DNA of 64,000 nt, taken from contig NZ_BLLN01000005.1 of NCBI RefSeq assembly GCF_011170125.1, forward strand, positions 806,001 through 870,000, read 5' to 3'. Of the stretch, positions 1,714 through 17,993 are shown in pieces; positions within the stretch are counted from its first letter, which is position 1; the number at the start of each line of letters is the position of its first letter. The notes below the pieces were generated by a model. It worked only from the letters and a program-made list of their open reading frames with translations, was not told where the DNA came from and made no database searches. Source of the DNA: Streptomyces diastaticus subsp. diastaticus (GTDB lineage Bacteria; Actinomycetota; Actinomycetes; Streptomycetales; Streptomycetaceae). The position numbers and the translations under genes were made by a program.

Positions 1714-2787
1714 TCAGCGCCTCTTCTTGCGGAGGGAGTGCAGGTGGGCGCTGGAGCGGCGGGCGAAGCGGAGGGAGTCGGCGGGGTTGTCGTGCTCGGT
1801 CTGCCAGTGGTGGGCGCGGCGGTGGCCGCGCAGTCCGGTGACGGTGGAGATGAAGTGCCGGTAGTCGATGTCGCCGTCGCCCACGTCGGTCATGCGGTAT
1901 CCGTCGGTGGTCGTCTCGTCGTGCTCGCCGTCCTTGACGTGGAAGAGCGGGTAGCGGTCGGGCTGTTCGAGGACGTAGGCGAGCGGGTCGAGCGGGGCCG
2001 GGGTGCCGTCGGCACGCCTGGAGAACCGGAACTGGGCGCAGTACGCCCAGTAGACGTCCATCTCCAGGTGGACCAGGTCCGGGTCGGTCTCGGCGAGCAG
2101 CACGTCGTAGAGGCGGACGTCGGGGCGGTCGGAGGCGAAGGAGAACTCCTCCGCGTGGTTGTGCTGGTAGAACTTCATGCCGCGCTTCTTCGCCTCGGCG
2201 CCGTAGTGGTTGAACTCCTCGGCGCAGCGTTTCCAGCCGTCGACGGTGTCGCCGTAGCGCCAGGGGCCGGAGGCGGTGCCGATGTGGGGCAGGCCCAGTT
2301 CGGCGGCCTCGTCGAGGACCTTGTCGAGGTTCTGGGCGAAGCTGTAGGCGTCGGGGTTGTCGTCGTCGTAGTAGTTGACGTGGCTGCCGATGGGCTTCAG
2401 GCCGTGGTTGCGGGCGAGGCGCTTGAGTTCGCGCAGGGAGATCGGCCCGGCCTCACCCTGGGTGTAACCGGCGAACTCGATCTCGTCGTAGCCGTAGAGG
2501 GCCAGTTCCTTGAAGACGGTGGCGAAGCCGAGGGTGGCCACCTTGTCACGGAGGCTGTACAGCTGGATGCCGAGGCGGCCGGGGGGCAGCACGGGCTCGC
2601 CCTTGCCGGGCCCGCCCCTGCCCTGGGCGTCGAGGTCGGTGGCGGCGGCCGGGGAGGCGGAGGCCGCGGCGGCCAGCAGGGCGGCGGCGCCGGTGCCGGC
2701 CGCGACGCCGAGCATGTTGCGGCGGCTCAGGCGCTTGTTCAGCTCGGGGTCGGTCACGTCGCGGAGGTGGCGGGGTGTGCGGCTCAT
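1714..2787 (-). CDS. Tat-exported sugar phosphate isomerase/epimerase-like TIM barrel
   Basis: 357 residues. A twin-arginine signal (SRRNMLG followed by an Ala-rich helix) ends near residue 49, so export of the folded protein is expected. The rest is a xylose-isomerase-like TIM barrel: RLGIQLYSLRDK, YDEIEFAG, GSHVNYYDD, FYQHNHAEEF, HLEMDVYWA and LFHVKDGE carry the Glu/His/Asp ligands usual for a divalent metal site. The ATG overlaps the stop of the upstream phosphatase gene (bases 2784-2787, ATGA), so translation is coupled. It is the last gene of the ebo-like operon. The substrate is unknown; a periplasm-side sugar or cyclitol step is an inference from the signal peptide and context. Confidence 0.85.
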   Translation of the reverse strand: MSRTPRHLRDVTDPELNKRLSRRNMLGVAAGTGAAALLAAAASASPAAATDLDAQGRGGPGKGEPVLPPGRLGIQLYSLRDKVATLGFATVFKELALYGYDEIEFAGYTQGEAGPISLRELKRLARNHGLKPIGSHVNYYDDDNPDAYSFAQNLDKVLDEAAELGLPHIGTASGPWRYGDTVDGWKRCAEEFNHYGAEAKKRGMKFYQHNHAEEFSFASDRPDVRLYDVLLAETDPDLVHLEMDVYWAYCAQFRFSRRADGTPAPLDPLAYVLEQPDRYPLFHVKDGEHDETTTDGYRMTDVGDGDIDYRHFISTVTGLRGHRRAHHWQTEHDNPADSLRFARRSSAHLHSLRKKRR

Positions 2788-4214
2788 GTGCGGTCCTCCC
2801 GGGTAAGGGCGGTGTCGGGTGCGGAGGTGGTGGTGAGACCGGCGAGGCGCAGCAGGAGCGCCTTGACGTCGGTGGCCGCCACGGGGCCTTCGGTGGCTCC
2901 GGGGCGGGAGCTGAGGAGGAGCGGGCCGTCCGCCTCGTCGGCGGGCAGGCGGCCGTGGCTGCCGCGGATGGGCGAGGCGTCGAGCGGGACGACGGCCATC
3001 CGGTAGCGCATGCCGAGCTTCTTGCGGGCGACGGCGGCGCCCGCGCGGAGCTTCACGTAGGGGTCGTTCGGGTCCATGAAGAGCTCGACGGGGTCGTAGC
3101 CCGGCTTGCGGTGGATCTCGACGAGCTGGGCGAAGTCGGGGGCGCGGGCGTCGTCGAGCCAGTAGTAGTACGTGAACCAGGCGTCCGGTTCCGCGACGGC
3201 GACGAACTCGCCGGAGCGCGGATGGTCCAGGCCCTGCTCCTTCTTGCCCTCCTCGTCCAGCAGGGTCTCGACACCGGGCACGTCGGCGAGCAGGGCGCGG
3301 ACGGTGTCGAGGTCCTCGGGGCGCTTGACGTAGACGTGGGCGAGCTGGTGGTCGGCGACGGCGAAGGCGCGGGAGGCCATCGTGTCCAGGTACTCCATGC
3401 CGTCCTGGGTGTGGACCTCCAGCAGCCCGGCCTCGCGCAGGACGCGGTTGAGGTGGACGGGGCGGCTGACGGAGGTGATGCCGTACTCGGAGAGGACCAC
3501 GACGGTGCGGCCGGCCGCCTCGGCCTGGTCCAGCAGCGGGCCGACGGCCTCGTCCAGTTCACGGGCGGCGGCGTGCGAGCGGGGGTCGTCGGGGCCGTAC
3601 CGCTGGAGGTCGTAGTCGAGGTGGGGCAGGTAGGCGAGGGTGAGGTCGGGGTCGCGGGTGGCCATGACGTGGCGGGTGGCGTCGATGATCCACTGGGAGG
3701 AGACGAGGTCGGCGCCGGGGCCCCAGAAGTGGAAGAGGGGGAAGGTGCCGAGCCGTTCGGTCAGTTCCTCGTGGAGTTCGGGCGGCCGGGTGTAGCAGTC
3801 GGGTTCCTTGCGGCCGTCGGCGTAGTAGACGGGTCGCGGGGTGACGGTCCAGTCGGTGTCGGCGCCCATCGCGTACCACCAGCAGATGTTGGCGACGGTG
3901 TAGCCGGGGTGGGCGCGGCGGGCGGCGTCCCAGAGGCGGTCGCCGCTGACGAGGCCGTTGTGCTGGCGCCACAGGAGGACGTCGCCGAGTTCGCGGAAGT
4001 ACCAGCCGTTGCCGACGATGCCGTGGTCGGCGGGGAGGGTGCCGGTGAGGAAGGTGGACTGGGCGGAGCAGGTGACGGCGGGCAGGACGGTGCCGAGCGG
4101 GGAGCGGCTGCCGCGCGCGCCGAGGGCGGCGAGGCGCGGCATGTGCTCCAGCAGGCGGGGGGTGAGGCCGACGACGTCGAGGACGAGGAGCGGCTGGGGT
4201 CGGTCGGCGGTCAC
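2784..4214 (-). CDS. Alkaline phosphatase superfamily (nucleotide pyrophosphatase/phosphodiesterase type), EboF-like
   Basis: 476 residues from a GTG at 4214 that overlaps the EboE stop by four bases (GTGA). I preferred this start to an in-frame ATG further upstream because the protein begins at the conserved strand LLVLDVVGLTPRLL. Type I phosphodiesterase features are visible: the nucleophile region AVTCSAQSTFLTGTLPADHG, the partner segment YLPHLDYDLQRYGPDDPRS and the metal-binding VVVLSEYGITSVSRPVHLN. No signal peptide is seen. In the cyanobacterial ebo cluster, EboF is also an alkaline-phosphatase-superfamily enzyme, and position supports the same role here. The substrate is not known. Confidence 0.88.
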   Translation of the reverse strand: MTADRPQPLLVLDVVGLTPRLLEHMPRLAALGARGSRSPLGTVLPAVTCSAQSTFLTGTLPADHGIVGNGWYFRELGDVLLWRQHNGLVSGDRLWDAARRAHPGYTVANICWWYAMGADTDWTVTPRPVYYADGRKEPDCYTRPPELHEELTERLGTFPLFHFWGPGADLVSSQWIIDATRHVMATRDPDLTLAYLPHLDYDLQRYGPDDPRSHAAARELDEAVGPLLDQAEAAGRTVVVLSEYGITSVSRPVHLNRVLREAGLLEVHTQDGMEYLDTMASRAFAVADHQLAHVYVKRPEDLDTVRALLADVPGVETLLDEEGKKEQGLDHPRSGEFVAVAEPDAWFTYYYWLDDARAPDFAQLVEIHRKPGYDPVELFMDPNDPYVKLRAGAAVARKKLGMRYRMAVVPLDASPIRGSHGRLPADEADGPLLLSSRPGATEGPVAATDVKALLLRLAGLTTTSAPDTALTREDRT

Positions 4215-5386
4215 GGCAGCTCCTTGAGGCCCAGGTCGATGAGGAGGTCGCGGGCGAGGGTGAGTTCGGCGGCGATGCCCTCGGTGAGGCGGGCGCGGGC
4301 CCTGGGGCGCAGCGCGGGCGGCAGGGCCTGCCAGGTGTACGTCTCGACCTCCAGGTGGTGGGTGCGCGGAGTGGGGCCGCCGACGAGCCCGGCGAGGGTC
4401 TCGCGGAGCACCGGCAGGGTGGAGGTGAGGGGCGGTTCGGGGTCGGCGTGCAGCGGGATGTGGAAGTGGGAGCGCCACGGCCCGGTGTCGGGCAGGCCGC
4501 CGGTGAGGGCTTCACCGAGGTCGTCGGTGCCGCTCAGTCCGGCCTCGGTGGTGGTGCGGGTCTGGTGCAGGAAGCGTGGTTCGTCGAAGGCTGCGAGGGC
4601 CGCGCGGACCCCGGCCCGGTGGGGTTCCTCGGCGTGCAGCGCGGCGGACAGCTGGGCCTTGACGACGCGGACGCCGCCCGCCTGGAGGGTGCCGAGCGCG
4701 CGGGCGGGGTCCTCGAAGGAGGTGGCGAGGTGGCAGGTGTCGAGGCAGACCCCGATGCGGTGGGCGGTGGTGCCTCCGAGCGGGGCGAGGGCGGCCACCG
4801 CGTCGGCGGTGGTCTCGACGGTGCAGCCGGGTTCCGGTTCGAGGCCGACGCGGATGGAGCGGCCGGTGAGGTCGGCGAGGGCGTCGAGCCGTTCGGCGAG
4901 GGTGGTGAGGGCGCCGAGGGCCGCGCGGTGGCGTCCGCTGTCGTAGTCGGTGCGCCAGGCGAAGGGCAGGGTGGAGACGGAGCCCTCGGTGACGTCGTCG
5001 GGGAGCAGGGAGGCGAGGAGGCGTGCGAGGTCGGTGGTGTGGGTGAGGCGGGCGCGTTCGGTCCAGTCGGGCCGGTAGACGCGGTACTTGACCTCGGCGT
5101 CGCCGAATCCCTCGTAGGGGAAGCCGTTGAGGGTGACCACCTCCAGGCCCCGCCGGTCGAGGTCGCCGCGGAGGGTGCGCAGGGCGGCGGGGTCGGCGAC
5201 CAGGGCGGCGGCCGCGTCGCGGGCGAGCCAGAGGCCGATGCCGAGCCGGTCGCGGCCCAGCCGTCGGCGGACGGGTTCGCAGTGGTCGCGGAGCTGGGCG
5301 CGGACGCCGTCGAGGGTCTCGGCGGGGTGGACGTTGGTGCAGTAGGCGAGGTGGACGGTGGAGCCGTCGGGGTGGCGAAAGCGCAT
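4211..5386 (-). CDS. eboE: Metabolite traffic protein EboE (xylose-isomerase-like TIM barrel)
   Basis: 391 residues from ATG 5386, four bases after the TatD-type gene. The start STVHLAYCTNVHPAETLDG is the hallmark of EboE proteins. Later motifs VGLEPEPGC, CLDTCHLA, WRSHFHIPLH and HHLEVETYTW supply the His/Glu/Asp set of a metal-dependent TIM barrel. In Nostoc punctiforme the ebo operon is needed for moving a scytonemin precursor out of the cytoplasm; the biochemical reaction of EboE is unknown. This is the marker gene that identifies the operon. Confidence 0.92.
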   Translation of the reverse strand: MRFRHPDGSTVHLAYCTNVHPAETLDGVRAQLRDHCEPVRRRLGRDRLGIGLWLARDAAAALVADPAALRTLRGDLDRRGLEVVTLNGFPYEGFGDAEVKYRVYRPDWTERARLTHTTDLARLLASLLPDDVTEGSVSTLPFAWRTDYDSGRHRAALGALTTLAERLDALADLTGRSIRVGLEPEPGCTVETTADAVAALAPLGGTTAHRIGVCLDTCHLATSFEDPARALGTLQAGGVRVVKAQLSAALHAEEPHRAGVRAALAAFDEPRFLHQTRTTTEAGLSGTDDLGEALTGGLPDTGPWRSHFHIPLHADPEPPLTSTLPVLRETLAGLVGGPTPRTHHLEVETYTWQALPPALRPRARARLTEGIAAELTLARDLLIDLGLKELP

Positions 5387-5390
5387 CGGC

Positions 5391-6263
5391 TCACTCCCCC
5401 GCCGTGAGGGGAGCGCCCCGCTGGATGCTGTTGCCCTCGTGCTCGGCGGTTCCGGCGGGCGCCGGCACGGTCAGGTCGCCGAGGCGGCCGCTGAGCCCGT
5501 AGAAGGCGAGGGGGTTGCGCCACAGCACCTGGTCGACGGCGTCCTCGTCGAAGCCGGCGGCGAGCAGGGCGTCGCCGACGGCGCGGGTCTTCAGCGGGTC
5601 GCTTCTGCCCCAGTCGGCGGCGGAGTTGACCAGGACCTTCTCGGGGCCGTACTCGGTGAGGACGGCGACCATGCGCTGCTCGTCCATCTTGGTGTCGGGG
5701 TAGATGGAGAAGCCGAGCCAGGCGCCGGAGTCCTTGGCCTCCTTGACGGTGGTCTCGTTGAGGTGGTCGATGAGGACGCGTTCCACGTCGAGCGCGGACT
5801 CGCGGACCACGTCGAGGGTGCGGCGCAGCCCGCTGAGCTTGTCCCGGTGCGGGGTGTGGACCATCGCGGGCAGGCCGTGGTCGGCGGCGAGCTGGAGCTG
5901 GGCGGTGAGGGCGGCGTCCTCGGCGGGGGTCATGGAGTCGTAGCCGATCTCGCCGACGGCGACCACGTTGTCCTTGAGGAGGTAGCGCGGCAGGAGGTCG
6001 AGGACCGGGGTGCAGCGCGGGTCGTTGGCCTCCTTGGGGTTGAGGGCGAGGGTGCAGCGGTGGGCGATGCCGTACTGGGCGGCGCGGAAGGGCTCCCAGC
6101 CGAGCAGCGCGTCGAAGTAGTCGCGGAAGCTGTCCGGGGAGGTGCGGGGCTGCCCGAGCCAGAAGGCGGGCTCGACCAGGGCGCGCACTCCGGCGTCGTA
6201 CATGGCCCGGTAGTCGTCGGTGGTGCGGGAGGTCATGTGGATGTGGGGGTCGAAGATGCGCAT
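5391..6263 (-). CDS. TatD family metal-dependent hydrolase (EboB-like)
   Basis: 290 residues from ATG 6263, whose A is shared with the EboA stop (TGATG). The N-terminal MRIFDPHIHMTSRT holds the HxH metal ligands; VGEIGYDSM supplies the bridging Glu, MVHTPHRDK and IDHLNETT further His ligands, and VNSAADWGRSDP the late Asp. These are amidohydrolase-fold TatD features. TatD enzymes are usually nucleases or esterases, but the ebo-linked branch has no established substrate. It is coupled to EboA upstream and EboE downstream. Confidence 0.9.
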   Translation of the reverse strand: MRIFDPHIHMTSRTTDDYRAMYDAGVRALVEPAFWLGQPRTSPDSFRDYFDALLGWEPFRAAQYGIAHRCTLALNPKEANDPRCTPVLDLLPRYLLKDNVVAVGEIGYDSMTPAEDAALTAQLQLAADHGLPAMVHTPHRDKLSGLRRTLDVVRESALDVERVLIDHLNETTVKEAKDSGAWLGFSIYPDTKMDEQRMVAVLTEYGPEKVLVNSAADWGRSDPLKTRAVGDALLAAGFDEDAVDQVLWRNPLAFYGLSGRLGDLTVPAPAGTAEHEGNSIQRGAPLTAGE

Positions 6264-6940
6264 CAGTTCTCCTTCGCGCCGCCACCGGCGGGCTGGGTCG
6301 TGGGGCGGCCGGTGGGCGCGGCCCCGGTGAGCGCGCGGGCGGCGGTGAGGTCGGCCGGGACGGCGCGGCCGGCGGCGGCGCGTTCCTCGGCGAAGTCGGC
6401 GAGCATCCGGTCGAGTTCGCCGTCCCCGGCGGCGCGTTCGGCGAGGCCGGCGACGGCGGTCAGCGGGACGCCGGTGAACAGGCACTTGAGGACGGCGTGC
6501 CGCCAGGCGTGGGCGTCCAGGTGACGGGCCGCGTACGGGCCGACGGCGGCGGCGACGATGCCGGTGTCGTTGGCGCGCAGGGCGTCCTCGACCAGGGGGA
6601 CGGCCTCGTGGCCCGGCACCACGAGCGTCAGCGCGTCGAGCACGGCGCGGCGTTCGGCGCCGCTGCCCTCCCGGTAGAGGCGGGTGAGGGTGCCGGCGTC
6701 GGCCCCTGCGGCGTGCAGCAGCAGGACGCGGGCGGTGTCGGCGTGGGCGGCGCCGGCACGGCGCCCGGCCTCGGCGAACCGGCGCTCCCAGGCGGGCAGC
6801 GGCCCGGCGCCCGCGCCCTCGGCGGCCTCGGCCAGGGCGGTGTCGAGCCAGGCGCGGGCGTCGGCGTCGAGCCGGCCGGCGAGGGCGCGGCGGATGGCGG
6901 CCGGGTCGGGCCGCGGCGGGGCGGAGGCGGGGTGGTTCAT
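6263..6940 (-). CDS. eboA: EboA domain-containing protein
   Basis: 225 residues from ATG 6940. An AGGAGG ribosome site lies just upstream on the coding strand. The protein is helical and Ala-rich with no catalytic motif that I can see. The segments WLDTALAEAAEG, AVLDALTLVVPGHEAVPLVEDALRAND and HAVLKCLFTGVPL agree with EboA proteins, which always accompany EboE. Its stop codon overlaps the TatD start. EboA's function is unknown in every organism. The recognition leans partly on operon context. Confidence 0.82.
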   Translation of the reverse strand: MNHPASAPPRPDPAAIRRALAGRLDADARAWLDTALAEAAEGAGAGPLPAWERRFAEAGRRAGAAHADTARVLLLHAAGADAGTLTRLYREGSGAERRAVLDALTLVVPGHEAVPLVEDALRANDTGIVAAAVGPYAARHLDAHAWRHAVLKCLFTGVPLTAVAGLAERAAGDGELDRMLADFAEERAAAGRAVPADLTAARALTGAAPTGRPTTQPAGGGAKEN

Positions 6941-6983
6941 ACGGGGTCCTCCTGTCGCGGCGTGGGGCGGGGTGCGGGCCGCC

Positions 6984-7874
6984 TCATGCGGGCCCGGCCG
7001 GGGTGAGGGCGGCGCCGGCCGCGCGGGCCGCGCGCCGCAGGAACGGCAGGGCGTGCGCGGCCTGCGCGGGCCCGGCGTGCGAGTGGCGGGGCAGTTCGAC
7101 GACGGTGAGCCCCTGGTAGGCGGTGGCGGCGAGCGCGGCGAGGACCGGCGGGAAGTCGATCTCCCCCTCGCCGAACGGCAGATGTTCGTGGACGCCGCGC
7201 CGCATGTCCTCGATCTGGACGTGCCGCAGCCAGGGCGCGGCCGCGCGGACGCAGGCGGCGGGCGGCTCGGGCTCCAGGCACTGGCAGTGGCCGATGTCCA
7301 GCGTGAGGCCCAGTTCGGCGGGGTCGCCGAGGAGGGTGCGCAGGCGGTGGAAGTCGGCCAGAGTGGCGACCAGGTGGCCCGGTTCGGGTTCCAGGGCCAG
7401 GGGGACACCGGTGGTCCGGGACGCCTCCAGGACGGGGGCGAGGGCGTCGGGCAGCGCGGCCCAGCCCTCCTCGGCGGTGGTGCCGGGCGGCGCGGAACCG
7501 GTGAAGCAGTGCAGGGCGTGGGCGCCCAGGTCGGCGGCGACCTGGGCGGCGGTGGCGAGCAGGCCGGTGCGACGGGCCCGCCGGTCCGGGTCGGCATCGA
7601 GCAGGCCGGGGCCGTGCTTCTCGCGGGGGTCCAGGACGTAGCGGGCACCGGTCTCGACGGTCACCGCGAGGCCCAGTTCCGCGAGGCGCCCGGCGATGCG
7701 GGCGGTGCGGGCGGCGAGGCCGGGGGCGAGCGGGTCGTGGTGCATGTGGTCGAGGGTCAGTCCCACGCCGTCGTAGCCGAGGTCGGCGAGGAGGGCGAGG
7801 GCGTCGTCGAGGCGCAGGTCGGTGAGGCCGTTGGTGCCGTAGCCGAGACGGAGGGGGGCGGGTACCGGGGTCAT
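6984..7874 (-). CDS. Sugar phosphate isomerase/epimerase (TIM barrel)
   Basis: 296 residues from ATG 7874, overlapping the stop of the prenyltransferase gene by four bases. The xylose-isomerase-like barrel is shown by LRLGYGTNGLTDLRLDDALALL, YDGVGLTLDHMHHDP, LALEPEPGHLV, GLTLDIGHCQC, RHVQIEDMRRGVHEHLPFGEG and TVVELPRHSH, which place His, Glu and Asp for a metal centre. The C-rich DIGHCQCLEPEPP stretch is a family feature. It is a second barrel in the same operon, cytosolic, unlike the Tat-exported one at the end. The substrate is unknown; a sugar or cyclitol phosphate is likely. Confidence 0.87.
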   Translation of the reverse strand: MTPVPAPLRLGYGTNGLTDLRLDDALALLADLGYDGVGLTLDHMHHDPLAPGLAARTARIAGRLAELGLAVTVETGARYVLDPREKHGPGLLDADPDRRARRTGLLATAAQVAADLGAHALHCFTGSAPPGTTAEEGWAALPDALAPVLEASRTTGVPLALEPEPGHLVATLADFHRLRTLLGDPAELGLTLDIGHCQCLEPEPPAACVRAAAPWLRHVQIEDMRRGVHEHLPFGEGEIDFPPVLAALAATAYQGLTVVELPRHSHAGPAQAAHALPFLRRAARAAGAALTPAGPA

Positions 7875-8827
7875 GTGGCGCTCACCTTCCTCGCGGCGAG
7901 GCGGGCCAGCGGCACCAGGGCGACGGTGGCGAGCGCCCCGCCGAGGGCTCCGGCGCGGGCGGACAGCGCCGCCTGGAGGGGGATCATGGCGCGGATGCCG
8001 CCGCCGACGGCCCGCTGGGTGAGCGGTGGCGAGGGGTTGAGCGCGGCGTGCAGGTAGGGCACGGCGGCCGTGGCGCCGTACAGGCCGGCGAGACCGACCC
8101 GGGCGGCGGCCCTGGCCCGGCGTGGACCCGGCGGACCGGGGGCGGCTGCTTCCCGCCGGTCCGCCGGGAGTCGGGTGGGTGCCCCGCGTCGCAGCCCGGC
8201 CACGGTGGCGGCGGTGGCCGCGGTGGTGACGAGGGCGCCGAGCGGGGCGCGGGTGGAGCCGCCGCGGGTTTCGTGGCGTGACACCGATGTCACGGCGTAG
8301 GTGTGCGCGCCGAGCAGGGCCGCGGCGGGCAGCGCGGTGCGGGCCGCGGCGCCGGTGCGGGCGGTGGCGGTGGCGCCGAGGAGCACGTCGAGGGTGCGGG
8401 CGGCGGCCATCCCGGCCGGGCCCGCCACCGTGCCGGCGAGTTTCAGGTCGTAGAGCCAGACGGTGGCGGCCAGGGCCGAGGCCGTGGTGAGGGCGGGGCG
8501 TCCGGCGGCCGCGGCCAGGCCGAGCCCGGCGGCGGTCAGCCCGGTGGCCGCGGTGAGCGCTGCGGCGGGGCTGATCCGGCCCGAGGGCAGCGGGCGGTGC
8601 GGGCGCTCGGCGCGGTCCTCGGCGCGGTCGGCCCAGTCGTTGAGCACCATCCCCGCCTCGTAGAGGCAGAGCGAGGAGCCGGCGGCGAGCAGGGTGCGCG
8701 GGCCGGGCCGGGCACCGGAGGCGGCGGCTCCGGCGAGGGCGTCGCCGGGCACGCTGAACGCGGCGGACACACGCAGGAGTTCGGCCCAGGCGGCGAGGCG
8801 GCCGCCCGGGGTGCGGGAGTGTGTCAC
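7871..8827 (-). CDS. UbiA family prenyltransferase (EboC-like)
   Basis: 318 residues from GTG 8827, which overlaps the stop of the inositol-phosphate-synthase-like gene (GTGA). An integral membrane protein with about eight hydrophobic helices. The first Asp-rich motif is NDWADRAEDRAERPHRPLPSG, the NDxxD site that binds prenyl diphosphate and Mg; a second, weaker site is YDLKLAG. UbiA enzymes transfer a polyprenyl chain to a small acceptor at the membrane. Placed directly after a cyclitol-forming enzyme, prenylation of a cyclitol or its derivative is an attractive inference; no acceptor has been shown. Confidence 0.87.
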   Translation of the reverse strand: MTHSRTPGGRLAAWAELLRVSAAFSVPGDALAGAAASGARPGPRTLLAAGSSLCLYEAGMVLNDWADRAEDRAERPHRPLPSGRISPAAALTAATGLTAAGLGLAAAAGRPALTTASALAATVWLYDLKLAGTVAGPAGMAAARTLDVLLGATATARTGAAARTALPAAALLGAHTYAVTSVSRHETRGGSTRAPLGALVTTAATAATVAGLRRGAPTRLPADRREAAAPGPPGPRRARAAARVGLAGLYGATAAVPYLHAALNPSPPLTQRAVGGGIRAMIPLQAALSARAGALGGALATVALVPLARLAARKVSAT

Positions 8828-10041
8828 GCGGCGGCCCCCAGTCGTCGGGCGAAGCCGAGGAGGAGCTGGTACTGCTCGGCGAGTCCGGCCGGCGCCGCGG
8901 TGGCGCCGTCCTTCGGACCGCGTACCGGGTCGGGGTCCTTGAAGTAGAAGGCCAGTTCGCCGAGGGGGCCGCTGATCCCGGCCTCGTGGGCGCGGGCCAG
9001 GAGCCGGGCCAGGTCGAGGACGAGGGGCGCGGCGAGGGCCGAGTCGCACCCCTGCCAGGTGGTCTGGAGAACCATGCGGGTGCCGAGGAAACCGTCGAAG
9101 GCGATGTGGTCCCAGGCGGTCTTCCAGTCGCCGAGGGCCGGTACGTCGTCGATGTGCACCTCGCCCTCGGGGACGGCGGGCAGGGTGTCGGCGAGGACGC
9201 GTTCCTTTCCGGCGTTCTTGGCGGCGGCCGCGGCCGGGTCGGCCAGTGCCGCCCCGTCGCCGCCGCCGAGCAGGTTGGCGCCGGACCAGGCGCGTACCGC
9301 GAGCGCCCGGTCGCGGAACATCGGGCCGAGCACGGAGCGCAGCAGGGTCTGCCCGGTCTTGCCGTCCCGCCCGGCGTACGGCAGCCCGGACGCCCGCGCC
9401 CGCTCGGCGAGGGCGGGGTGCTGGATGCCGGTGGAGGGCGTGAAGTTGGCGTACGGGCAGCCGGCGCGCAGGGCGGCGGCGGCGTAGAGGGAGCTGGCGG
9501 GGAGCACGCCGTCGGTTGGGGCGGGCTCGGTGGAGGCGACGTTGACCACGACGACGCGGGCGAGGCCGTGCTCCGCGCGGAAGGCGGTGAGGTCGGCGGC
9601 GAAGGCGTCGACCAGCTCCTCGGTGGACCGCGGGTCACCGGGCTGCGGGCCGCCGGGGCGGACGGCGCGGTCGGCGGCCTCCAGTTCGGCGCGGACCGCG
9701 GTGGGCATGCCGTGCGGCAGGACACCTCCCTCGGCGAGCGCCTCGGCACGCTTGGGGAGCGGGCAGTCGGCGGTGTCGTGGCCGCCGAAGACGAGGGAGG
9801 AGAGCGGTACGAGGCCGGCCTGGGAGAAGGGGCGGGTCTCGGTGGCGAGGCCGGTCGGCGGATGCAGCCCGGCGACCACGGCGGCACAGCCGGCGACGGC
9901 GGTGGTGGCGACGGAGCCTCTGGCGCCGATCAGCCAGACACCGGTCCGGGGCTCGGACGCCGAGGAGCCGGCGGCGCGCCGGTCGGTGCCGGGAGCGGTG
10001 CGGGGAGCGGGGGTGTCGGTGGGGAACGACTCGGTGGACAC
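8824..10041 (-). CDS. Inositol-3-phosphate synthase-like protein
   Basis: 405 residues from GTG 10041, chosen because AGGAGG lies 6 bases upstream on the coding strand. It has an N-terminal NAD-binding GARGSVATT and a catalytic-type core: LPASSLYAAAALRAGCPYANFTPS, GRDGKTGQTLLRSVLGPMF, WSGANLLGGGDG, and FLGTRMVLQTTWQGCDSALAAP. The family turns glucose 6-phosphate into 1L-myo-inositol 1-phosphate using NAD internally. This copy is the first gene of the ebo-like operon and is likely a specialised paralogue rather than the housekeeping Ino1 used for mycothiol. It could act on a different hexose or heptose phosphate. Confidence 0.88.
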   Translation of the reverse strand: MSTESFPTDTPAPRTAPGTDRRAAGSSASEPRTGVWLIGARGSVATTAVAGCAAVVAGLHPPTGLATETRPFSQAGLVPLSSLVFGGHDTADCPLPKRAEALAEGGVLPHGMPTAVRAELEAADRAVRPGGPQPGDPRSTEELVDAFAADLTAFRAEHGLARVVVVNVASTEPAPTDGVLPASSLYAAAALRAGCPYANFTPSTGIQHPALAERARASGLPYAGRDGKTGQTLLRSVLGPMFRDRALAVRAWSGANLLGGGDGAALADPAAAAAKNAGKERVLADTLPAVPEGEVHIDDVPALGDWKTAWDHIAFDGFLGTRMVLQTTWQGCDSALAAPLVLDLARLLARAHEAGISGPLGELAFYFKDPDPVRGPKDGATAAPAGLAEQYQLLLGFARRLGAAA

Positions 10042-10391
10042 AGGCAGCCTCCTGTTACCAGCGAACAGCAGTGATCCGATGGGTCGGTGCGCGCGGCGCC
10101 GGGACAAGGCGGCCGTCTGCCGCCCGGTCGCCGCCGGGCGCGCGCGGGTGTGGCGCGGGTCCGACGGGCGCGCGCGGGGCGCGGGGCCCGCGGGTCCCGG
10201 GGTCGGCCGGGCCTTCGGGGCCCGGGGCACTACCGGAACCGGGAGCGGAACCGGAGGGGGCGGCGGGTGCGGGGCCGGGGCCGGCGTGCTGCCCGGCCCC
10301 GGTCCCGTCGTGGTACCCGGGCCCCGGTCGGGGGACGGGAGGCGGGGGCCGCCCGTCCCCGCGGGTGGGTGGGGTGCCGGAAGGCGGGTGA
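10042..10391. other. Gene-free upstream region of the ebo-like operon
   Basis: About 350 bases of very G+C-rich sequence with G-runs and short GGGGCCCG-type repeats. It must hold the promoter of the leftward ebo-like operon, but I see no convincing -10/-35 pair. No open frame here has coding character. Confidence 0.5.
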
Positions 10392-10429
10392 GACGGCGGG
10401 CGGAGGTCCGGCGTCCGCCGCCCGCCGTC
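10392..10429 (-). terminator. Terminator of the five-domain ThuA gene
   Basis: Perfect 12-bp stem GACGGCGGGCGG / CCGCCCGCCGTC with a 14-base loop, two bases beyond the stop codon at 10432. Confidence 0.75.
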
Positions 10430-10431
10430 GC

Positions 10432-13400
10432 TCAGTCGCCCTGGGCGGGCAGTTCCTTCAGCCGGATGTCGCGGAAGGTGACGTGGTCGTCGTCCCCGTG
10501 GTTCTGGAGGCCGATGTACCCGTCGGTCAGGGAGCGGGCCGGGTCCTCGTTGGTGAAGTCGTTGATCTCGACTCCGTTGAGGAACACCTGGAGGCGTTCG
10601 CCCTGGACCTTGATCTCGTAGCTGTTCCACTCCCCCGGCGGGTTGAGGGCCTTGTCACGGGCCTCGATGTCGGCGGACTGGAAGGTGTAGACCGCGCCGG
10701 TGGTGCGGTCGGGTTCGTCGGTGGCGTCGATCTGCACCTCGTAGCCGTTGTCCACGGCCGACCAGGGGTCTTCGGAGGCCGGGAAGCCCACGAAGACACC
10801 GGAGTTGTCGTCGCCCCTCATCTTCCAGTCGAGCTTCAGGGAGTAGGAGGACAGCTCCTTGGCCTCGTACCAGAGCAGGCCCATGCCGCCGGTGGTGGTC
10901 AGCTCACCGTTGTCGACGGTGAACTCGCCGGGGCCCGCCTGTTTCCAGCCGTCGAGGGTCTTGCCGTCGAAGACCGGCTCGTAGCCGTCCTCCTCCTCGC
11001 CGCCGCCCTTGGGGGAGCAGTCGGCGTCGGCCAGGCCGGTGGCGTACGTCAGGCCGCCGGCCAGGTGGGCGCGGAAGCCGGCCTCGGCGAAGGACTCGAC
11101 GGTGTGGCCGCCGCCGGTGTAGAAGGAGCGGCCGCCCTCGTAGGTCTGGCACCAGGCGATGGGGTGGTCACCGTCCATGGTGCCGCCCTCGTAGCTGGAC
11201 TCGTCCAGGGTGGCGAGGACGCGGGCCTGCTCACGGGGGTTGGTGCCGTAGTTGTACCACTCGTCGGTGCGCTCCCAGGTCTCGCCGAGGTGCGCGGTGG
11301 CGGGGTGGTCGTGGTCCTCGACCTGGACGGTGGCTTCCTGGATGTGCGGGTGGGAGTCGAAGTAGGCGCCGACCAGGCCGCCGTAGAACTCCCACTCGTA
11401 CTCGGTGTCGGCGGCCGCGTGGACGCCGACGTAGCCGCCGCCGTCCGCGACGTACTCCTCGAACGCCTTCTGCTGGTCGCCGTCGAGGACGTCGCCGGTG
11501 GTGGAGAGGAAGGTGACGGCGTCGTACTCGGCGAGCTTCTCCGGGGTGAACCGGCCGGCGTCCTCGGTGGCGTCGACCTCGATGCCGTTCTCCGCGCCGA
11601 TCTCCTTCAGAGCCTCGATGCCGGCCGGGATGGAGTCGTGGCGGAAGCCGGCGGTCTTGGAGAAGACCAGGAGCTTCTTGTCGGCGGCCGCCGGGGCGGC
11701 GCCGTCGATGACGAAGTCGTCCACGTCGTAGAGGGCGCCGTCGCCCTCGCCCTTGAAGACGAGGAAGAGTTCGGTGGTGTCCGGGCCGATGTCGGTCAGC
11801 GCGGTCTCGACGTCCTCGAAGGTCTCCCAGCCGCCGGTGACCGGGACGGTGGCGGTGCCGTGCAGGGTGCCGGTGGGCGACCCGCTGCGGACCTCCAGGG
11901 TGCCGCCGCTGCCGCCGGAGGAGATGCGGGCGGTGAACTTGTCGGCGCCGGTGAGGTTGTACGGCTTGAAGGAGATCCAGTCGCCGTCGTGGATGTCGCC
12001 GACGGTCTTGCCGCCGTGGGCGGTGGACTTGTTCTGCGGGGCCACGCCCTCGAAGTCGCCGTAGTGCTCGGCCTGCCGGTGGCGGGGCTGGAGCGTGATC
12101 TGGTCGGAACCGCTGAGCGCGGGCTGGCCGCCCGCGCCGGTGTCGGTGTAGGAGGCGTCGATCACGCCGAAGATGTTGGCGTTGGGATCGTGCTCGCCGT
12201 CGGCGGGCACGTTGAGGGTGCCCTCGCAGCCCTCTGCCGAGGTGATGGGGTGGCCGTGGTTGTCGTGGCCGAGGATGTAGCGGACGGTGACCTTGGAGCA
12301 GTCGATCTCCTCGTCCTCGGGGTCGGTGACCTCGACCTTGAAGGAGACGGTGTCACCGAACTTGAACAGCGTGCCGTCCTTCGGCTGCTGGAGGGTGACG
12401 GTCGGCGCGGTGTTGCCGACGGTGACATGGACCGAGGCGGTGCCCTTGAGGCCGGCCGGGTCGGTGGCGGTCAGCGTCGCGGAGTAGACGCCGTTCTCCT
12501 CGTAGGCGTGGGTGGGGTTCTCCTCGTCGCTGGTGGCTCCGTCGCCGAAGTCCCAGCTGTAGGTGAGCGGGTCGCCGTCGGCGTCCTCGGTGCCCTCGGA
12601 GGAGAAGGCGACCTCCAGCGGGCTCTGGCCCGAGGTCTTGTCGGCCTTGGCCACGGCGACCGGAGCGTAGCCGTCGGTGGCGTTCTCGATGCGGTAGACG
12701 GCCGAGTTGGCGTCGCCGCCGAAGTAGCCGGTGCCGTAGTCGAGGACGTACAGGGCGCCGTCCGGACCGAACTCCATGTCCATGACCTGGGTGCCGGACC
12801 ACGGGAAGTCGTGGATGGCCTCGACGGTGCCGTCCTCGCCCTGCTCGATCCGCTTGATCCACTGGCGGCCGAACTCCCCGGCGAAGAAGTTCCCGTCGAA
12901 CTCCTCGGGGAACTTCACCGGCGAGTCGAGGGAGGCGTCGTAGCGGTAGACCGGGCCGCCCATCGGCGACTCGGAGCCGTTGCCGAACTCCGGGACGCTG
13001 TCGCCGTCGTAGGGGATCCAGGCGGCCTGGGCCGGCGGCAGGTCGGTGAGGCCGGTGTTGTGCCGGGAGGTGTTCTTCGGCGCGTCGCAGTCGAAGGGCT
13101 CGCCGGAGGTCTTGGTCGCGAAGTCGTAGTCGTTGAACGGCTCGTTGTCACCGGTGCAGTACGGCCAGCCGAAGTTGCCGGCCTCGGTGACGCGGGCGAA
13201 CTCGACCTGTCCGGCGGGACCGCGGTCCGGGTCGGCGGAGCCGGCGTCGGGGCCGTAGTCGCCGACGTAGACGATGCCGGTGGCCTGGTCGACGCTCATC
13301 CGGAACGGGTTGCGGAAGCCCATCGCGTAGATCTCGGGACGGGTCTTCTCGGTGCCGGGGGCGAAGAGGTTGCCCTCGGGGATGTCGTACGAGCCGTCGT

Positions 13401-14157
13401 CCTTGACCTTGACGCGGAGGATCTTGCCGCGCAGGTCGTTGGTGTTGCCGGAGCTGCGGCGGGCGTCGAAGGCCGGGTTGCGGTCCTCGCGCTCGTCGAT
13501 GGGGGTGAAGCCGTCGGAGGCGAAGGGGTTGGTGTCGTCGCCGGTCGACAGGTAGAGGTTGCCGTCCGCGTCGAAGGCGATGTCACCGCCGACGTGGCAG
13601 CACATGCCGCGTGAGGCGGGGACGTCGAGGATCTTCTTCTCGCTGTCCTGGTCGAGGGTGCCGTCCTCGTTCAGGACGAACCGCGAGAGGCGGTTGACGC
13701 CGTCGTACGGCTCGAAGTCGGCGGCGGTGCCGTTCTCGGGGGCGTCGCCGGAGGGGGTGTCGAGCTTCGGGGCGTAGTACAGGTAGATGAATCGGTTCTC
13801 CTCGAAGCCGGGGTCGACCCCGACTCCCTGGAGCCCCTCCTCGTCGTGGCTGTACACGTCGAGGGTGCCGGCGACCTTGGTGGTGCCGCCCGCGTCGGTG
13901 AGCCGCAGGTCGCCCTCGCGGGCGGTGTGCAGGACGCCGCCGTCGGGCAGGACGGCCATGGTCATCGGCTCCCCGGTCTCCTCCACGCCCTTGGCGAGGG
14001 TGACCTGCTGGAAGGTGGGGGCCGCGGCGGGCTTGCCGATCGCCTCCGGGTCGGCGGCGCTCGCGGGGAGCGCGGCCAGGCCCAGTGAGGCGCTGGTGAG
14101 GAGGGCGCCGGTGAGGAGCGCCACCGCCTGGCGGAGTCTTGGACGTTTCCTGTGCAC
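10432..14157 (-). CDS. Secreted five-domain protein: PQQ-type sugar dehydrogenase propeller, PKD, CBM6-like, ThuA, 3-keto-disaccharide hydrolase
   Basis: About 1241 residues from GTG 14157, preferred over ATG 14214 because GGAGG lies 7 bases upstream. After a signal peptide (to about residue 35) come a glucose/sorbosone-dehydrogenase-like beta-propeller (about 45-510: PMTMAVLPDGGVLHTAREG, LYLSTGDDTNPF, GNFGWPYC, DMEFGPDGALYVLDYGTG), a PKD repeat (YSWDFGDGATSDEENPTHAY), a carbohydrate-binding module (AEHYGDFEGV, DGDWISFKPYNLTG), a ThuA domain (LLVFSKTAGFRHDSI, GVHAAADTEYEW, WYNYGTNPRE) and a C-terminal DUF1080 domain (FDGKTLDGWKQ, YSLKLDWKMRGDDNSG). Boundaries are approximate. ThuA-linked systems process 3-keto sugars, and DUF1080 enzymes cleave 3-keto-disaccharides, so this looks like an extracellular glycoside processor. 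Upstream DNA matches that of the ROK gene. Confidence 0.9.
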   Translation of the reverse strand: MHRKRPRLRQAVALLTGALLTSASLGLAALPASAADPEAIGKPAAAPTFQQVTLAKGVEETGEPMTMAVLPDGGVLHTAREGDLRLTDAGGTTKVAGTLDVYSHDEEGLQGVGVDPGFEENRFIYLYYAPKLDTPSGDAPENGTAADFEPYDGVNRLSRFVLNEDGTLDQDSEKKILDVPASRGMCCHVGGDIAFDADGNLYLSTGDDTNPFASDGFTPIDEREDRNPAFDARRSSGNTNDLRGKILRVKVKDDGSYDIPEGNLFAPGTEKTRPEIYAMGFRNPFRMSVDQATGIVYVGDYGPDAGSADPDRGPAGQVEFARVTEAGNFGWPYCTGDNEPFNDYDFATKTSGEPFDCDAPKNTSRHNTGLTDLPPAQAAWIPYDGDSVPEFGNGSESPMGGPVYRYDASLDSPVKFPEEFDGNFFAGEFGRQWIKRIEQGEDGTVEAIHDFPWSGTQVMDMEFGPDGALYVLDYGTGYFGGDANSAVYRIENATDGYAPVAVAKADKTSGQSPLEVAFSSEGTEDADGDPLTYSWDFGDGATSDEENPTHAYEENGVYSATLTATDPAGLKGTASVHVTVGNTAPTVTLQQPKDGTLFKFGDTVSFKVEVTDPEDEEIDCSKVTVRYILGHDNHGHPITSAEGCEGTLNVPADGEHDPNANIFGVIDASYTDTGAGGQPALSGSDQITLQPRHRQAEHYGDFEGVAPQNKSTAHGGKTVGDIHDGDWISFKPYNLTGADKFTARISSGGSGGTLEVRSGSPTGTLHGTATVPVTGGWETFEDVETALTDIGPDTTELFLVFKGEGDGALYDVDDFVIDGAAPAAADKKLLVFSKTAGFRHDSIPAGIEALKEIGAENGIEVDATEDAGRFTPEKLAEYDAVTFLSTTGDVLDGDQQKAFEEYVADGGGYVGVHAAADTEYEWEFYGGLVGAYFDSHPHIQEATVQVEDHDHPATAHLGETWERTDEWYNYGTNPREQARVLATLDESSYEGGTMDGDHPIAWCQTYEGGRSFYTGGGHTVESFAEAGFRAHLAGGLTYATGLADADCSPKGGGEEEDGYEPVFDGKTLDGWKQAGPGEFTVDNGELTTTGGMGLLWYEAKELSSYSLKLDWKMRGDDNSGVFVGFPASEDPWSAVDNGYEVQIDATDEPDRTTGAVYTFQSADIEARDKALNPPGEWNSYEIKVQGERLQVFLNGVEINDFTNEDPARSLTDGYIGLQNHGDDDHVTFRDIRLKELPAQGD

Positions 14158-14241
14158 GGAGTTCCTCCGGGAAGACGTCGTGCGGGTGGGGGTGCTGCCG
14201 GGGTGCGCCGTCACCCCGGAGAGCCGTACTGGTCTCGCTCT

Positions 14242-14320
14242 GGACCGTAGCGACCTTTGTTCCCGCCGGAAACCCCTTGCACAGCAGGGAAGTTGAACTT
14301 TCTCCCGGCACAGGACAAAG
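14242..14320 (-). promoter_or_regulatory. Promoter and upstream element of the five-domain gene, shared with the ROK gene
   Basis: Read leftward: -35 TTTCCG (14267-14272), 17-base spacer, -10 TACGGT (14244-14249). Further upstream, 14297-14320 holds CTTTGTCCTGTG, three bases, then GGAGAAAGT. The ROK gene has the same arrangement without any gap (22261-22339). A palindrome AAGTT-C-AACTT (14290-14300) overlaps the element here only. A common regulator is inferred; which protein binds is not known. Confidence 0.6.
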
Positions 14321-14338
14321 GGGTGGGCGGGCAGCCCT

Positions 14339-14371
14339 GACCGGCCCGTCGGCGCTGCCGCCGGGCCGGTC
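14339..14371 (-). terminator. Hairpin terminator after the TIM-barrel gene
   Basis: Stem GACCGGCCCG / CGGGCCGGTC (10 bp), 13-base loop, 28 bases beyond the stop at 14400. It separates the upstream operon from the five-domain gene, consistent with that gene having its own promoter. Confidence 0.65.
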
Positions 14372-14399: not shown

Positions 14400-15404
14400 T
14401 CAGTCGCGACCGCCGAAGGCCGCGTCGAAGGATGCCTTGGGCGGGTCCCAGTCGAGCTTGCGCAGGGTGGCCAGCGCCTCGGGCGCGCCGGTCAGCCGGT
14501 CCATCCCGGCGTCCTCCCACTCCACCGAGACGGGCCCCTGGTAGCCGATCGAGCGGAGCATCCGGAAGACGTCCTCCCAGGGCACGTCGCCATGGCCGGC
14601 CGAGACGAAGTCCCAGCCGCGCCGCGGGTCGCCCCACGGCAGATGGGAGCCGAGCCGTCCGTTGCGCCCGTCGAGGCGCTTGCGGGCCTCCTTGCAGTCC
14701 ACGTGGTAGATCCGGTCACGGAAGTCCCACAGGAAGCCGACCGGGTCGAGGTCCTGCCAGACGAAGTGGCTCGGGTCGAAGTTGAGCCCGAAGGCGGGCC
14801 GGTGACCGACCGCCTCCAGGGCCCGGTGGGTGGTCCAGTAGTCGTAGGCGATCTCGCCCGGGTGGACCTCGTGGGCGAAGCGGACGCCCTCGGCGTCGAA
14901 GACGTCGAGGATCGGGTTCCAGCGGTCGGCGAAGTCCTGGTAGCCGCGGTCGATCATGCCCTCGGGAACTGGCGGGAACATCGCGACCAGGTGCCAGATG
15001 GCCGAGCCGGTGAAGCCGATGACGGTGTCGACGCCGAAGGCGGCCGCGGCCCGGGCGGCGTCCTTGATCTCGGCGGCGGCCCGCTGCCGGACCCCTTCGG
15101 GCTCGCCGTCGCCCCAGATGCGGGCGGGCAGGATGTTCCGGTGCCGCTCGTCGATGACGGCGTCGCAGACCGCCTGGCCGACCAGGTGGTAGGAGATGGC
15201 CCGGCACTTCAGCCCGTACTTGTCGAGCAACTGGTGCCGCCCGGCGACGTAGGCCGGGTCGGCCAGCGCCTTGTCGACCTCGAAGTGGTCCCCCCAGCAG
15301 GCAAGTTCCAGCCCGTCGTAACCGAAGTCGCGGGCCAGCCGGCAGACCTCCTCCAGGGGGAGGTCTGCCCACTGCCCGGTGAAGAGGGTGAATTCGCGCG
15401 GCAT
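14400..15404 (-). CDS. Sugar phosphate isomerase/epimerase (TIM barrel) of the sugar cluster
   Basis: 334 residues from ATG 15404, one base after the oxidoreductase stop. Barrel signatures are [88 protein letters not shown] and [13 protein letters not shown]; the Glu, Asp and two His residues form the expected metal site. Such barrels paired with Gfo/Idh/MocA enzymes act on 3-keto glycosides (for example C-deglycosylation systems) or on inosose-type sugars. The pairing with the next gene is therefore more informative than the family alone. Exact substrate unknown. Confidence 0.88.
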
Positions 15405-15405
15405 G

Positions 15406-16638
15406 TCAGGTCGCCTCCTGGTCCGTTACGGGGGTGTAGACGGCGTTCTTCGCGGCACTCTCCTCGACCGCCGCCAGCACCCGCTGGACGCGGAGCCCGT
15501 CGGCAAACGAGGGGGCGGGGCTGGTGCCGGCGGCGACCGCGTGCACCAGGTCGCGGGCCTGGTGGACGAAGGTGTGGTCGTAGCCGAGCCCGTGGCCCGG
15601 CGGCCACCAGCCCTCCAGGTACGGGTGGTCCGGCTCGGTCACCAGGATGCGGCGGAAGCCGCTGGTGGCGGCGGGCTCGCTCTGGTCGTGGAAGGACAGC
15701 TCGTTGAGCCGTTCCAGGTCGAAGGCGAGTGAGCCGAGTTCGCCGTTCAGCTCGACCTGGAGGGAGTTCTTGCGGCCGGTGGCGAACCGGGTCGCCTCGA
15801 AGGTGCCGAGCGCGCCGGAGGCGAACCGGGCGGTGAAGACCGCCGCGTCGTCCACGGTGACGGGCCCGGTCTTTGTCGCGCCCGCGCCGCGCAGACCGGA
15901 GGAGGAACCGGCGAGCAGCGGCCGCTCCTTGACGAAGGTCTCGGTGAGCGCGGACACCCCGGCGACGGCCTCGCCCGTGAGGTACTGCGCGAGGTCGACG
16001 GCGTGCGCGCCGAGGTCGCCGAGCGCGCCGGAGCCCGCGCTCTCCTTGCGCAGCCGCCAGGTCAGCGGGAACGCCGGGTCGACCAGCCAGTCCTGGAGGT
16101 AGCGCACCCGCACGTGGCGCAGCCGGCCCAGGCGGCCCTCGGCGACCAGCGAGCGGGCGTAGGCGGCGGCGGGGACGCGCCGGTAGTTGAAGCCGACCAT
16201 GGCGACCTGGCCGCGGGCGGCGGCCCGCTCGGCCGCGGCCACCATCGCCTCCGCCTCCTCGACGGTGTTGGCGAGCGGCTTCTCGCACAGCACGTGCTTG
16301 CCCGCCTCCAGCGCGGCGACCGCGATCTCGGCGTGGCTGTCGCCGGGGGTGCAGATGTCGACCAACTGGACGTCATCGCGGGCGATCAGCGCCCGCCAGT
16401 CGGTCTCGGCGGCGTCCCAGCCGAGCTTGGCCGCGGCCGTGCGCACCGCCTCGGGGTCACGGCCGCAGACCGCGGCCAGCTGCGGCTGGAGCGGCAGGTC
16501 GAAGACGCGTCCGGCGGTCCGCCAGCCCTGGGAGTGGGCCGCGCCCATGAACGCGTAACCGACCATGCCCACACCGAGACGCGGGGTCCCGGGCGGGGCC
16601 GGGCGGCCTGCGGCCGCCTCCTGCTCCGTCTCTCGCAT
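15406..16638 (-). CDS. Gfo/Idh/MocA family NAD(P)-dependent oxidoreductase
   Basis: 410 residues from ATG 16638 with a strong GGAGGAGGAAG ribosome site. The Rossmann start is [18 protein letters not shown], then [31 protein letters not shown] with the EKP catalytic Lys, NYRRVPA, and [16 protein letters not shown] carrying the second-domain Asp and His. The family oxidises or reduces sugar hydroxyls, often at C3. It lies between the ABC importer genes and the TIM barrel, so it probably oxidises the imported sugar. A cytosolic enzyme. Confidence 0.9.
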
Positions 16639-17792: not shown

Positions 17793-17880
17793 GGTGGTGG
17801 CCCTTTCGGGGTGCGGCTCGTGGGCGGGGCTCGGCTGACGGGGGCTGTGGGGTGCCGGGGGTCCGGAGGATCCTGCGGCG

Positions 17881-17917
17881 CGTCCGCGGTGGGGGGCGTG
17901 CTCCCGGTGCGCGGACG
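17881..17917 (-). terminator. Intercistronic hairpin upstream of the lipoprotein gene
   Basis: Arms CGTCCGCG and CGCGGACG with a 21-base loop, in the 201-base gap between permease and binding-protein genes. A weak terminator or processing site is possible; the gap is unusually long for this operon. Confidence 0.35.
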
Positions 17918-17993
17918 AAGGCCCTCGGGCGGGGCGTTTCCTGCTCGGACGGAGTCGAGAGCCCGGGCGCGCGTGCGGATCGGCCGGACGCCC

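Follow-up and report, generated by a model that had tools for sequence, protein, structure and literature searches.

A myo-inositol-phosphate-synthase homologue in place of EboD in the ebo operon of Streptomyces and other Actinobacteria

The ebo operon (eboA–F; Yurchenko 2016; Klicki 2018) has been posited to make a cyclitol–isoprenoid product, and clusters lacking EboD were noted in the same work (PMC5133447). Mutants of Nostoc tie the operon to the movement of the scytonemin monomer out of the cytoplasm (PMC6282210). The window analyzed here, a stretch of 64,000 nucleotides from Streptomyces diastaticus subsp. diastaticus (contig NZ_BLLN01000005.1, positions 806,001 to 870,000), carries a variant of this operon. 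Eight leftward genes fill positions 1714–10041, in the order MIPS, EboC, TIM1, EboA, EboB, EboE, EboF, and TIM2. As in the described operon, EboA, EboB, an EboC-type UbiA prenyltransferase, EboE, and EboF are clustered; unlike it, the locus has no EboD, and a myo-inositol-phosphate-synthase homologue (MIPS) and the TIM-barrel protein TIM1 are found instead. Since the EboD feature is missing, the locus is classed as an ebo variant, even though it is mostly an ebo operon. Among the open-licence papers listed in literature searches, none was found to describe the MIPS–ebo pairing, and Yurchenko 2016 (PMC5133447) and Klicki 2018 (PMC6282210) never use the word “inositol” in their main texts. The former does report, from Actinobacteria, a fusion of EboA with a xylose-isomerase-like domain, which probably corresponds to TIM1–EboA.

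Other described systems resemble single parts of the locus. The MIPS is like the A. fulgidus MIPS, which serves a compatible solute, and like BT_1526 in fold and active-site residues, with 32–39% identity. Ari2, which we take to belong to the aristeromycin pathway, is likewise a MIPS homologue in specialized metabolism. Digeranylgeranylglyceryl phosphate synthase, an archaeal UbiA protein and a weak match of EboC in the PDB after chlorophyll synthase, transfers a prenyl group in ether linkage to a polyol phosphate, the same reaction as the one proposed for EboC. Whereas BT_1526 supplies inositol lipids (PMC9246714), the window gene belongs to an ebo operon. In Streptomyces coelicolor, a transferase and a myo-inositol phosphate synthase bear the consecutive locus tags SCO3242 and SCO3243 among the CDA-cluster genes (PMC3610822); they carry no ebo description in the available parts of that source. 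SCO3242 has also given its name to the NCBI prenyltransferase family.

The replacement of EboD by MIPS in actinobacterial ebo operons is well supported. Across the source genome (7.08 Mb in nine contigs, with the window on contig C5) no EboD was found; the only dehydroquinate-synthase match, at C3:1210353 on another contig, is taken as AroB. Among 150 genomes of the genus, EboE exceeds the NCBIfam cut-off in 104, and 106 have a MIPS that shares 49% identity or more with that of the window. The two occur together in 101 genomes, EboE alone in three (G014, G050, G068), MIPS alone in five, and neither in 41. The genome G050 is 82% complete and holds a MIPS fragment of 47 residues; EboE fragments below the cut-off are present in three genomes of the MIPS-alone group (G008, G081, G119). 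Fisher's p for this co-occurrence (1e-27) is merely descriptive because the genomes are relatives. Of the 118 EboE copies in the genus, 90 are preceded by a same-strand MIPS at a gap of 2.4–4.6 kb; the other 28 are on a contig different from that of the MIPS match, are extra copies lacking MIPS, or belong to the three MIPS-less genomes.

The pairing extends beyond the genus. EboE exceeds the cut-off in 13 of 296 sampled genomes of the phylum, with MIPS nearby in all 13 according to their coordinates, and in 83 of 345 sampled genomes of the class, 24 from the same genus and 59 from outside it. A MIPS match at 1e-20 or better is present in 54 of these 59 genomes, and in 51 it lies upstream of EboE on the same strand, 1.5–4.2 kb away. 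The remaining eight comprise five lone EboE homologues, two genomes with MIPS on another contig (G499 and G628, probably contig breaks), and one ebo cluster (G460) discussed below. With the Azospirillum EboD as query, an EboD-level match was found in none of the 59: all of them gave only matches of 29–39% identity, none within 80 kb of EboE, and EboD proteins of ebo loci are 49–69% identical to EboD queries, apart from one extra match at 31%. Thirteen actinobacterial family codes have MIPS upstream of, and on one strand with, EboE, and the gene order was seen in 12 of them; this recurrence argues that the pairing is not due to chance. An earlier note on this DNA had stated that EboD is missing with MIPS in its place and had proposed a comparison of EboE neighborhoods with MIPS and with EboD; the statement is confirmed, and the comparison reveals a general actinobacterial pairing. 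Neither of the findings that the note named as contrary to its idea, an EboD elsewhere in the genome or a failure of MIPS and ebo genes to co-occur in other genomes, was made.

The five lone EboE homologues (G469, G493, G588, G667, and G706, at loci L175–L179) were rejected as exceptions to the pairing, as no other ebo gene was found within about 9 kb on either side. As they exceed the NCBIfam EboE cut-off, this cut-off also names a group that is not ebo. In the one case that was scanned (L177), dehydrogenase E1-type and transketolase-type genes are adjacent.

As a control, the 80 best-scoring named loci listed for a query alignment of EboE led by Gemmatirosa were used; they span Proteobacteria, Cyanobacteria, Bacteroidota, and others, and under-sample Actinobacteria. 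EboD is present in 64 of them, MIPS in none, and TIM1 in none. At least two other ebo genes accompany EboE in 59 loci, 55 of which carry EboD. The 16 loci without EboD include several short contigs or lone EboE genes, and four (L077, L084, L102, L132) that have at least two other ebo genes. Annotated plasmids of Azospirillum, Roseivivax, Deinococcus, and Ketogulonicigenium hold ebo genes with EboD. Four Streptomyces plasmids show the order inositol-3-phosphate synthase, SCO3242-family prenyltransferase, sugar isomerase, EboA, TatD, EboE, and a phosphodiesterase or alkaline-phosphatase-family gene; judged by EboE, most of the closest named plasmid relatives come from Streptomyces. In L084, an alphaproteobacterial ebo locus from a metagenome-assembled genome of the Acetobacteraceae in which EboD was not detected, an ATP-binding cassette (ABC) importer and a Gfo/Idh dehydrogenase lie directly upstream. 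In L102, where EboD was likewise not detected, a histidine kinase is found upstream.

The MIPS of the operon is of the archaeal/Bacteroides type. It exceeds the Pfam cut-offs of PF07994 (119 bits, cut-off 25) and PF01658 (99 bits, cut-off 27), and the nine active-site positions checked are all kept in 49 of 49 rows; K278A, K367A, and N255A are mutants named in the PDB. The predicted model is closest to BT1526 and the A. fulgidus MIPS. On TIGR03450, the mycothiol-type INO1 family, the protein scores 37 bits against a cut-off of 638. A second MIPS-family gene of the genome, at C2:661172 on another contig, is interpreted as the canonical INO1, which makes the operon MIPS a distinct enzyme. For an enzyme of the archaeal/Bacteroides type, the default product would be ordinary inositol 1-phosphate rather than a heptose-derived ring, and from the sequence the first reaction of the operon is predicted to be the conversion of glucose 6-phosphate to inositol 1-phosphate.

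Seven genes, MIPS–EboC–TIM1–EboA–EboB–EboE–EboF, form the conserved core. This was established on 27 non-Streptomyces loci, out of 55 genomes with MIPS beside EboE, which were picked to cover families and selected for EboE and MIPS lying together; at the thresholds used they contain MIPS (27), EboA (27), EboB (27), EboC (26), EboF (26), and TIM1 (24). TIM1 is a real new core member that typically travels with MIPS, and it is absent from all 64 EboD loci. Since TIM1 usually tracks MIPS, the two mostly appear as a pair jointly replacing EboD. Its residues E162, D193, H229, H231, and E260 are kept in 56 of 56 rows, and in NCBIfam it matches hydroxypyruvate isomerase and IolE weakly. Residues H7, H9, E105, H136, H167, and D217 of EboB are kept in 60 of 60 rows; we take the conserved residues of both proteins to be metal ligands. 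EboC exceeds the cut-offs of the SCO3242 family NF045897 (369 bits, cut-off 260) and of UbiA PF01040 (66 bits, cut-off 34), and the N and D residues of its NDxxDxxxD motif (residues 63–71), presumably the prenyl-diphosphate site, are kept in 59 of 59 rows. By these conserved residues TIM1, EboB, and EboC appear to be functional enzymes. In EboF, the conserved stretch E243-Y244-G245-I246, preceded by Ser in the window, stands where S-D-H-G would presumably be expected in NPP-type enzymes; hence a change in one pair of metal ligands is possible.

The family assignments, those above included, were made on open reading frames, some of which are longer than the actual gene. EboE scores 419 bits on NF035939 (cut-off 250), EboB 43 bits on TatD PF01026 (cut-off 27), and EboF 233 bits on PF01663 (cut-off 23). 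EboA reaches 157 bits on the domain model NF035938 (cut-off 50) and 58 bits on the whole-protein model NF035937, below its cut-off of 320. EboB and EboF have matches of about 40–70% identity in other phyla, and the window and Azospirillum versions of these two proteins retrieve the same ebo neighbors.

It is moderately probable that in this ebo variant MIPS, in most cases together with TIM1, takes over the role of EboD and provides an inositol-derived cyclitol that would then be prenylated. MIPS, whose family, site, and fold are observed, would act in the cytoplasm, cyclizing glucose 6-phosphate to inositol 1-phosphate with the help of NAD. TIM1 together with EboE and EboB may then isomerize or trim the cyclitol, and EboF may take off a phosphate or phosphodiester; both steps are placed in the cytoplasm because no signal-like N-termini were seen, and the presumed metal sites of TIM1 and EboB are intact. 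EboC, with its motif intact, would attach a prenyl chain to the cyclitol as its putative acceptor, giving a membrane-held prenyl-cyclitol. By analogy with the scytonemin monomer of Nostoc, this molecule could help a partner metabolite to reach, or react at, the outer face of the membrane. Setting the MIPS system against the EboD system suggests that the ring is interchangeable, being the proposed C7 cyclitol with EboD and inositol here.

A prenylated cyclitol, as put forward in the earlier note, is thus consistent with the locus but unproven. The order of events given there, export followed by trimming through the phosphatase and a Tat-exported TIM barrel, is unsupported, since by hydropathy no signal-like N-terminus was found in EboF, EboE, EboB, or TIM1. 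TIM2 alone has a twin-arginine leader (RRNML and a hydrophobic stretch). A TIM2 homologue is present in 12 of 12 window-type Streptomyces loci and in none of 10 MIPS-less Streptomyces loci; at an identity of at least 30% it occurs in just 7 of the 27 other MIPS–ebo loci, so it is not a core member.

A more specific proposal, possible but of low confidence, is that most Streptomyces make an undescribed compound, either inositol bearing a prenyl group or a prenyl-tailed, quinol-like ring formed by dehydration of an inositol, which would reside in the membrane for extracytoplasmic oxidative enzymes. GSDH- or ScyE-type proteins and multicopper oxidases beside some clusters, presumably located outside the cytoplasm, would be the oxidative partners.

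The layout of the operon and of the adjoining genes is given in Table 1. The earlier note was right on the eight leftward genes, their coordinates, and their order. Its description of most junctions as overlaps of 1–4 bases or gaps of a few bases holds, the single exception among the seven being TIM1–EboA, where the gap is 43 bases. Five junctions are overlaps of 1–4 bases (4 bases for MIPS/EboC, EboC/TIM1, EboE/EboF, and EboF/TIM2; 1 base for EboA/EboB), and EboB and EboE are separated by 4 bases. A scan of 9990–10480 for consensus promoters and terminators found none, which carries little weight for GC-rich actinobacterial DNA.

Table 1. Features of the ebo variant and the adjoining sugar-import/keto-sugar module (positions in the window)
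Feature	Position	Strand	Basis or remark
MIPS-like inositol-1-phosphate synthase, 405 residues	8824..10041	-	GTG start; stands in for EboD of other ebo clusters
Ribosome-binding site AGGAGG	10048..10053	-	Sequence; 6 bases ahead of MIPS GTG
EboC, UbiA-superfamily prenyltransferase (SCO3242 family), 318 residues	7871..8827	-	NF045897, PF01040
TIM1, sugar isomerase/epimerase-like TIM barrel, 296 residues	6984..7874	-	Usual MIPS partner
EboA-domain protein, 225 residues	6263..6940	-	NF035938
EboB, TatD-family metal-dependent hydrolase, 290 residues	5391..6263	-	PF01026
EboE, 391 residues	4211..5386	-	NF035939
EboF, alkaline-phosphatase-superfamily phosphodiesterase, 476 residues	2784..4214	-	PF01663
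TIM2, xylose-isomerase-like TIM barrel, twin-arginine leader	1714..2787	-	PF01261, 63 bits; accessory
w10432, 1260-residue protein with GSDH, PKD, CBM6, ThuA, and 3-keto-disaccharide-hydrolase domains	10432..14214	-	Pfam
w14400, TIM barrel, IolE-like by weak match	14400..15404	-	Domain scans
w15406, Gfo/Idh/MocA dehydrogenase, levoglucosan-dehydrogenase-like	15406..16638	-	NF052479, 367 bits, below cut-off 650
Ribose-type sugar ABC importer: binding protein, permease, ATPase	16746..20533	-	Pfam, NCBIfam

Three types of ebo locus were distinguished in Streptomyces, from 12 window-type loci drawn mostly from the best MIPS matches, six loci with a more distant MIPS, and a chosen set of 10 MIPS-less loci. 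In type I, the kind seen in the window, w10432, w14400, w15406, and TIM2 adjoin the operon in all 12 loci. Type II has a MIPS at 52–56% identity and different neighbors; in the plasmids L071 and L074 a ScyD/ScyE-family gene (NF033206, 243 bits in L071) and a multicopper oxidase are adjacent. In L182 (G652), two weaker ScyE-like matches lie upstream of MIPS. In type III, which has no MIPS, seven of the 10 loci (L045, L155, L156, L158, L159, L160, L162) have two further genes upstream of EboC, the first for a CrtO/CrtI-like FAD oxidase and the second for an IMPase-family phosphatase. A cytochrome P450 match occurs in nine of the 10, pentalenolactone-synthase-like in most of the seven phosphatase-bearing copies. 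The best-scoring PDB matches of the phosphatase are inositol monophosphatases. In the EboE tree, four type III rows nest within the MIPS-bearing actinobacterial clade, hence type III looks like secondary losses.

The module linked to the operon spans 10432–22243, with a ROK-family gene included. The neighbors of type I reflect more than synteny within the genus, and their linkage to ebo reaches beyond Streptomyces. Homologues of w10432 occur in 13 of the 27 other MIPS–ebo loci, of w14400 (at least 60% identity) in nine of them as well as in G460, and of w15406 (at least 55%) in six; all three importer genes lie beside ebo in four of the 27 and in G460. At the thresholds used, no module gene was found in the 64 EboD loci, the 10 type III loci, or the five lone-EboE loci, and the six type II loci gave a single w10432 match and no other module gene. 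As the EboD loci are mostly from other phyla, the type II, type III, and lone-EboE loci are the fairer controls. In G460 (L180, contig C2) the order is ROK gene, ABC importer, Gfo/Idh, EboC-A-B-E-F, w14400, a TIM barrel, and w10432.

Several observations weigh against MIPS as the general substitute for EboD and against a prenylated inositol as the product. All ebo copies share ancestry, so the counts are not independent. Three of the 27 MIPS–ebo loci have no TIM1; two of these are from one family, and the third (L185) is also short of EboC and EboF. EboC scores 107 bits on the EboC equivalog NF035940, with a cut-off of 250. The ebo cluster of G460 has no adjacent MIPS or TIM1, and a MIPS of a different type is found only on another contig; it is plausible that this cluster draws on a cyclitol or sugar taken up from outside instead of one made in the cell. 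Three of the 10 type III loci have no IMPase-family phosphatase nearby, and this phosphatase was not called an inositol monophosphatase outright, as NCBIfam ranks HisN first, with all scores below cut-off. Eight of the 10 type III copies are in genomes with a MIPS copy elsewhere; G014 and G068 have no ebo-type MIPS. Gemmatirosa (Gemmatimonadota) is the sole non-actinobacterium found with MIPS and TIM1 in its ebo locus, and the EboE tree places it with EboD-type relatives (100/96); an independent swap of EboD for MIPS in this lineage is not claimed, because the approximately unbiased test does not reject a single MIPS clade (p 0.35). A MIPS tree rooted with canonical INO1 was left unused, its outgroup branch being too long and its deep forks unresolved. 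In addition, an ebo cluster of Saccharomonospora, which appears in a figure legend of PMC9235831 and lies outside the sample, would be an actinobacterial exception if it bears EboD.

A further contrary point is that EboC homologues of Bacteroidota ebo clusters farnesylated quinolines in vitro, with 8-hydroxyquinoline-2-carboxylic acid as acceptor (PMC9235831). It also speaks for a different explanation, in which the inositol phosphate from MIPS serves a separate purpose (as a solute, a sugar donor, or a polar head group) and the acceptor of EboC is an aromatic or quinoline compound, so that the two never become part of one molecule. Two Streptomyces plasmid clusters lying beside ScyD/ScyE-family and multicopper-oxidase genes, one of them also beside an aromatic prenyltransferase, fit this idea. 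However, MIPS and EboC overlap by 4 bases, and MIPS stays in all 27 non-Streptomyces loci (chosen for EboE–MIPS proximity) whatever the other neighbors are. Moreover, the quinoline result came from a panel of 14 aromatic compounds, with no cyclitols reported in the parts of PMC9235831 available. A separate role for MIPS is therefore considered unlikely, although it is the strongest of the alternatives.

The MIPS homologue could also form another ring, such as a five-membered or seven-carbon cyclitol phosphate, as Ari2 or the EboD relatives do. Ari2, itself a MIPS homologue, is entered in the PDB (6k96) as a five-membered-cyclitol-phosphate synthase, and EboD has been posited to use sedoheptulose 7-phosphate (PMC5133447). 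The operon MIPS is not closer to Ari2 than to MIPS, and such a product appears improbable. Still more doubtful is a locus chiefly for the uptake and oxidation of a sugar or cyclitol, in which the ebo genes would handle an imported keto-sugar and MIPS would top up a related pool. ROK, ABC importer, Gfo/Idh, TIM-barrel, and keto-disaccharide-hydrolase genes do lie next to ebo, both in the window and in other families as well as in the MIPS-less G460, and the alphaproteobacterial locus L084, in which EboD was not detected, also has an ABC importer and a Gfo/Idh gene upstream. Yet at the thresholds used none of the seven genes of the module was found in the 10 MIPS-less Streptomyces loci and nearly none in type II, each occurs in only 4–13 of the 27 other loci against 27 for MIPS, and their linkage within Streptomyces may be simple synteny. 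Finally, that MIPS is a passenger functionally unrelated to ebo, as the canonical INO1 elsewhere in the genome might suggest, is very improbable given its constant strand and position in 13 family codes, its overlapping start, its intact active site, and its absence from the EboD-type loci seen.

If an inositol-derived prenyl-cyclitol is indeed made, ebo would be a general prenyl-cyclitol cofactor kit with a swappable ring, provided as a C7 cyclitol by EboD or as inositol by either MIPS with TIM1 or a phosphatase, and the ebo genes of G460 would perhaps be fed by an imported cyclitol. For an operon named in 2016, the exchange of EboD for an unrelated ring-forming enzyme of predictable chemistry backs the cyclitol idea and narrows the ebo substrate to a testable candidate, inositol phosphate. 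It also moves the question from cyanobacteria and algae to the genetically easy Streptomyces, in which EboE is so widespread among the sampled genomes. Furthermore, the pairing suggests that Actinobacteria build lipids or cofactors from inositol other than mycothiol and phosphatidylinositol.

Relatives of TIM1 are also found together with related MIPS genes at four loci devoid of ebo genes (L055, L062, L063, L181). L063 contains MIPS, a hypothetical protein of 308 residues, a methyltransferase, Gfo/Idh, a metallo-beta-lactamase-fold protein, YcaO, a TIM1-like protein, and a glycosyltransferase; MIPS and TIM1 relatives are present in L062 and L181 too, and this second kind of MIPS cluster, from other Actinobacteria, looks like an undescribed cyclitol natural-product pathway. 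At L055, in the genome G420, the adjacent MIPS and TIM1 relatives lie by GNAT, TsaD, TsaD-like, and TsaE genes, and on another contig of the same genome (L054) ebo genes with an internally deleted EboE are found.

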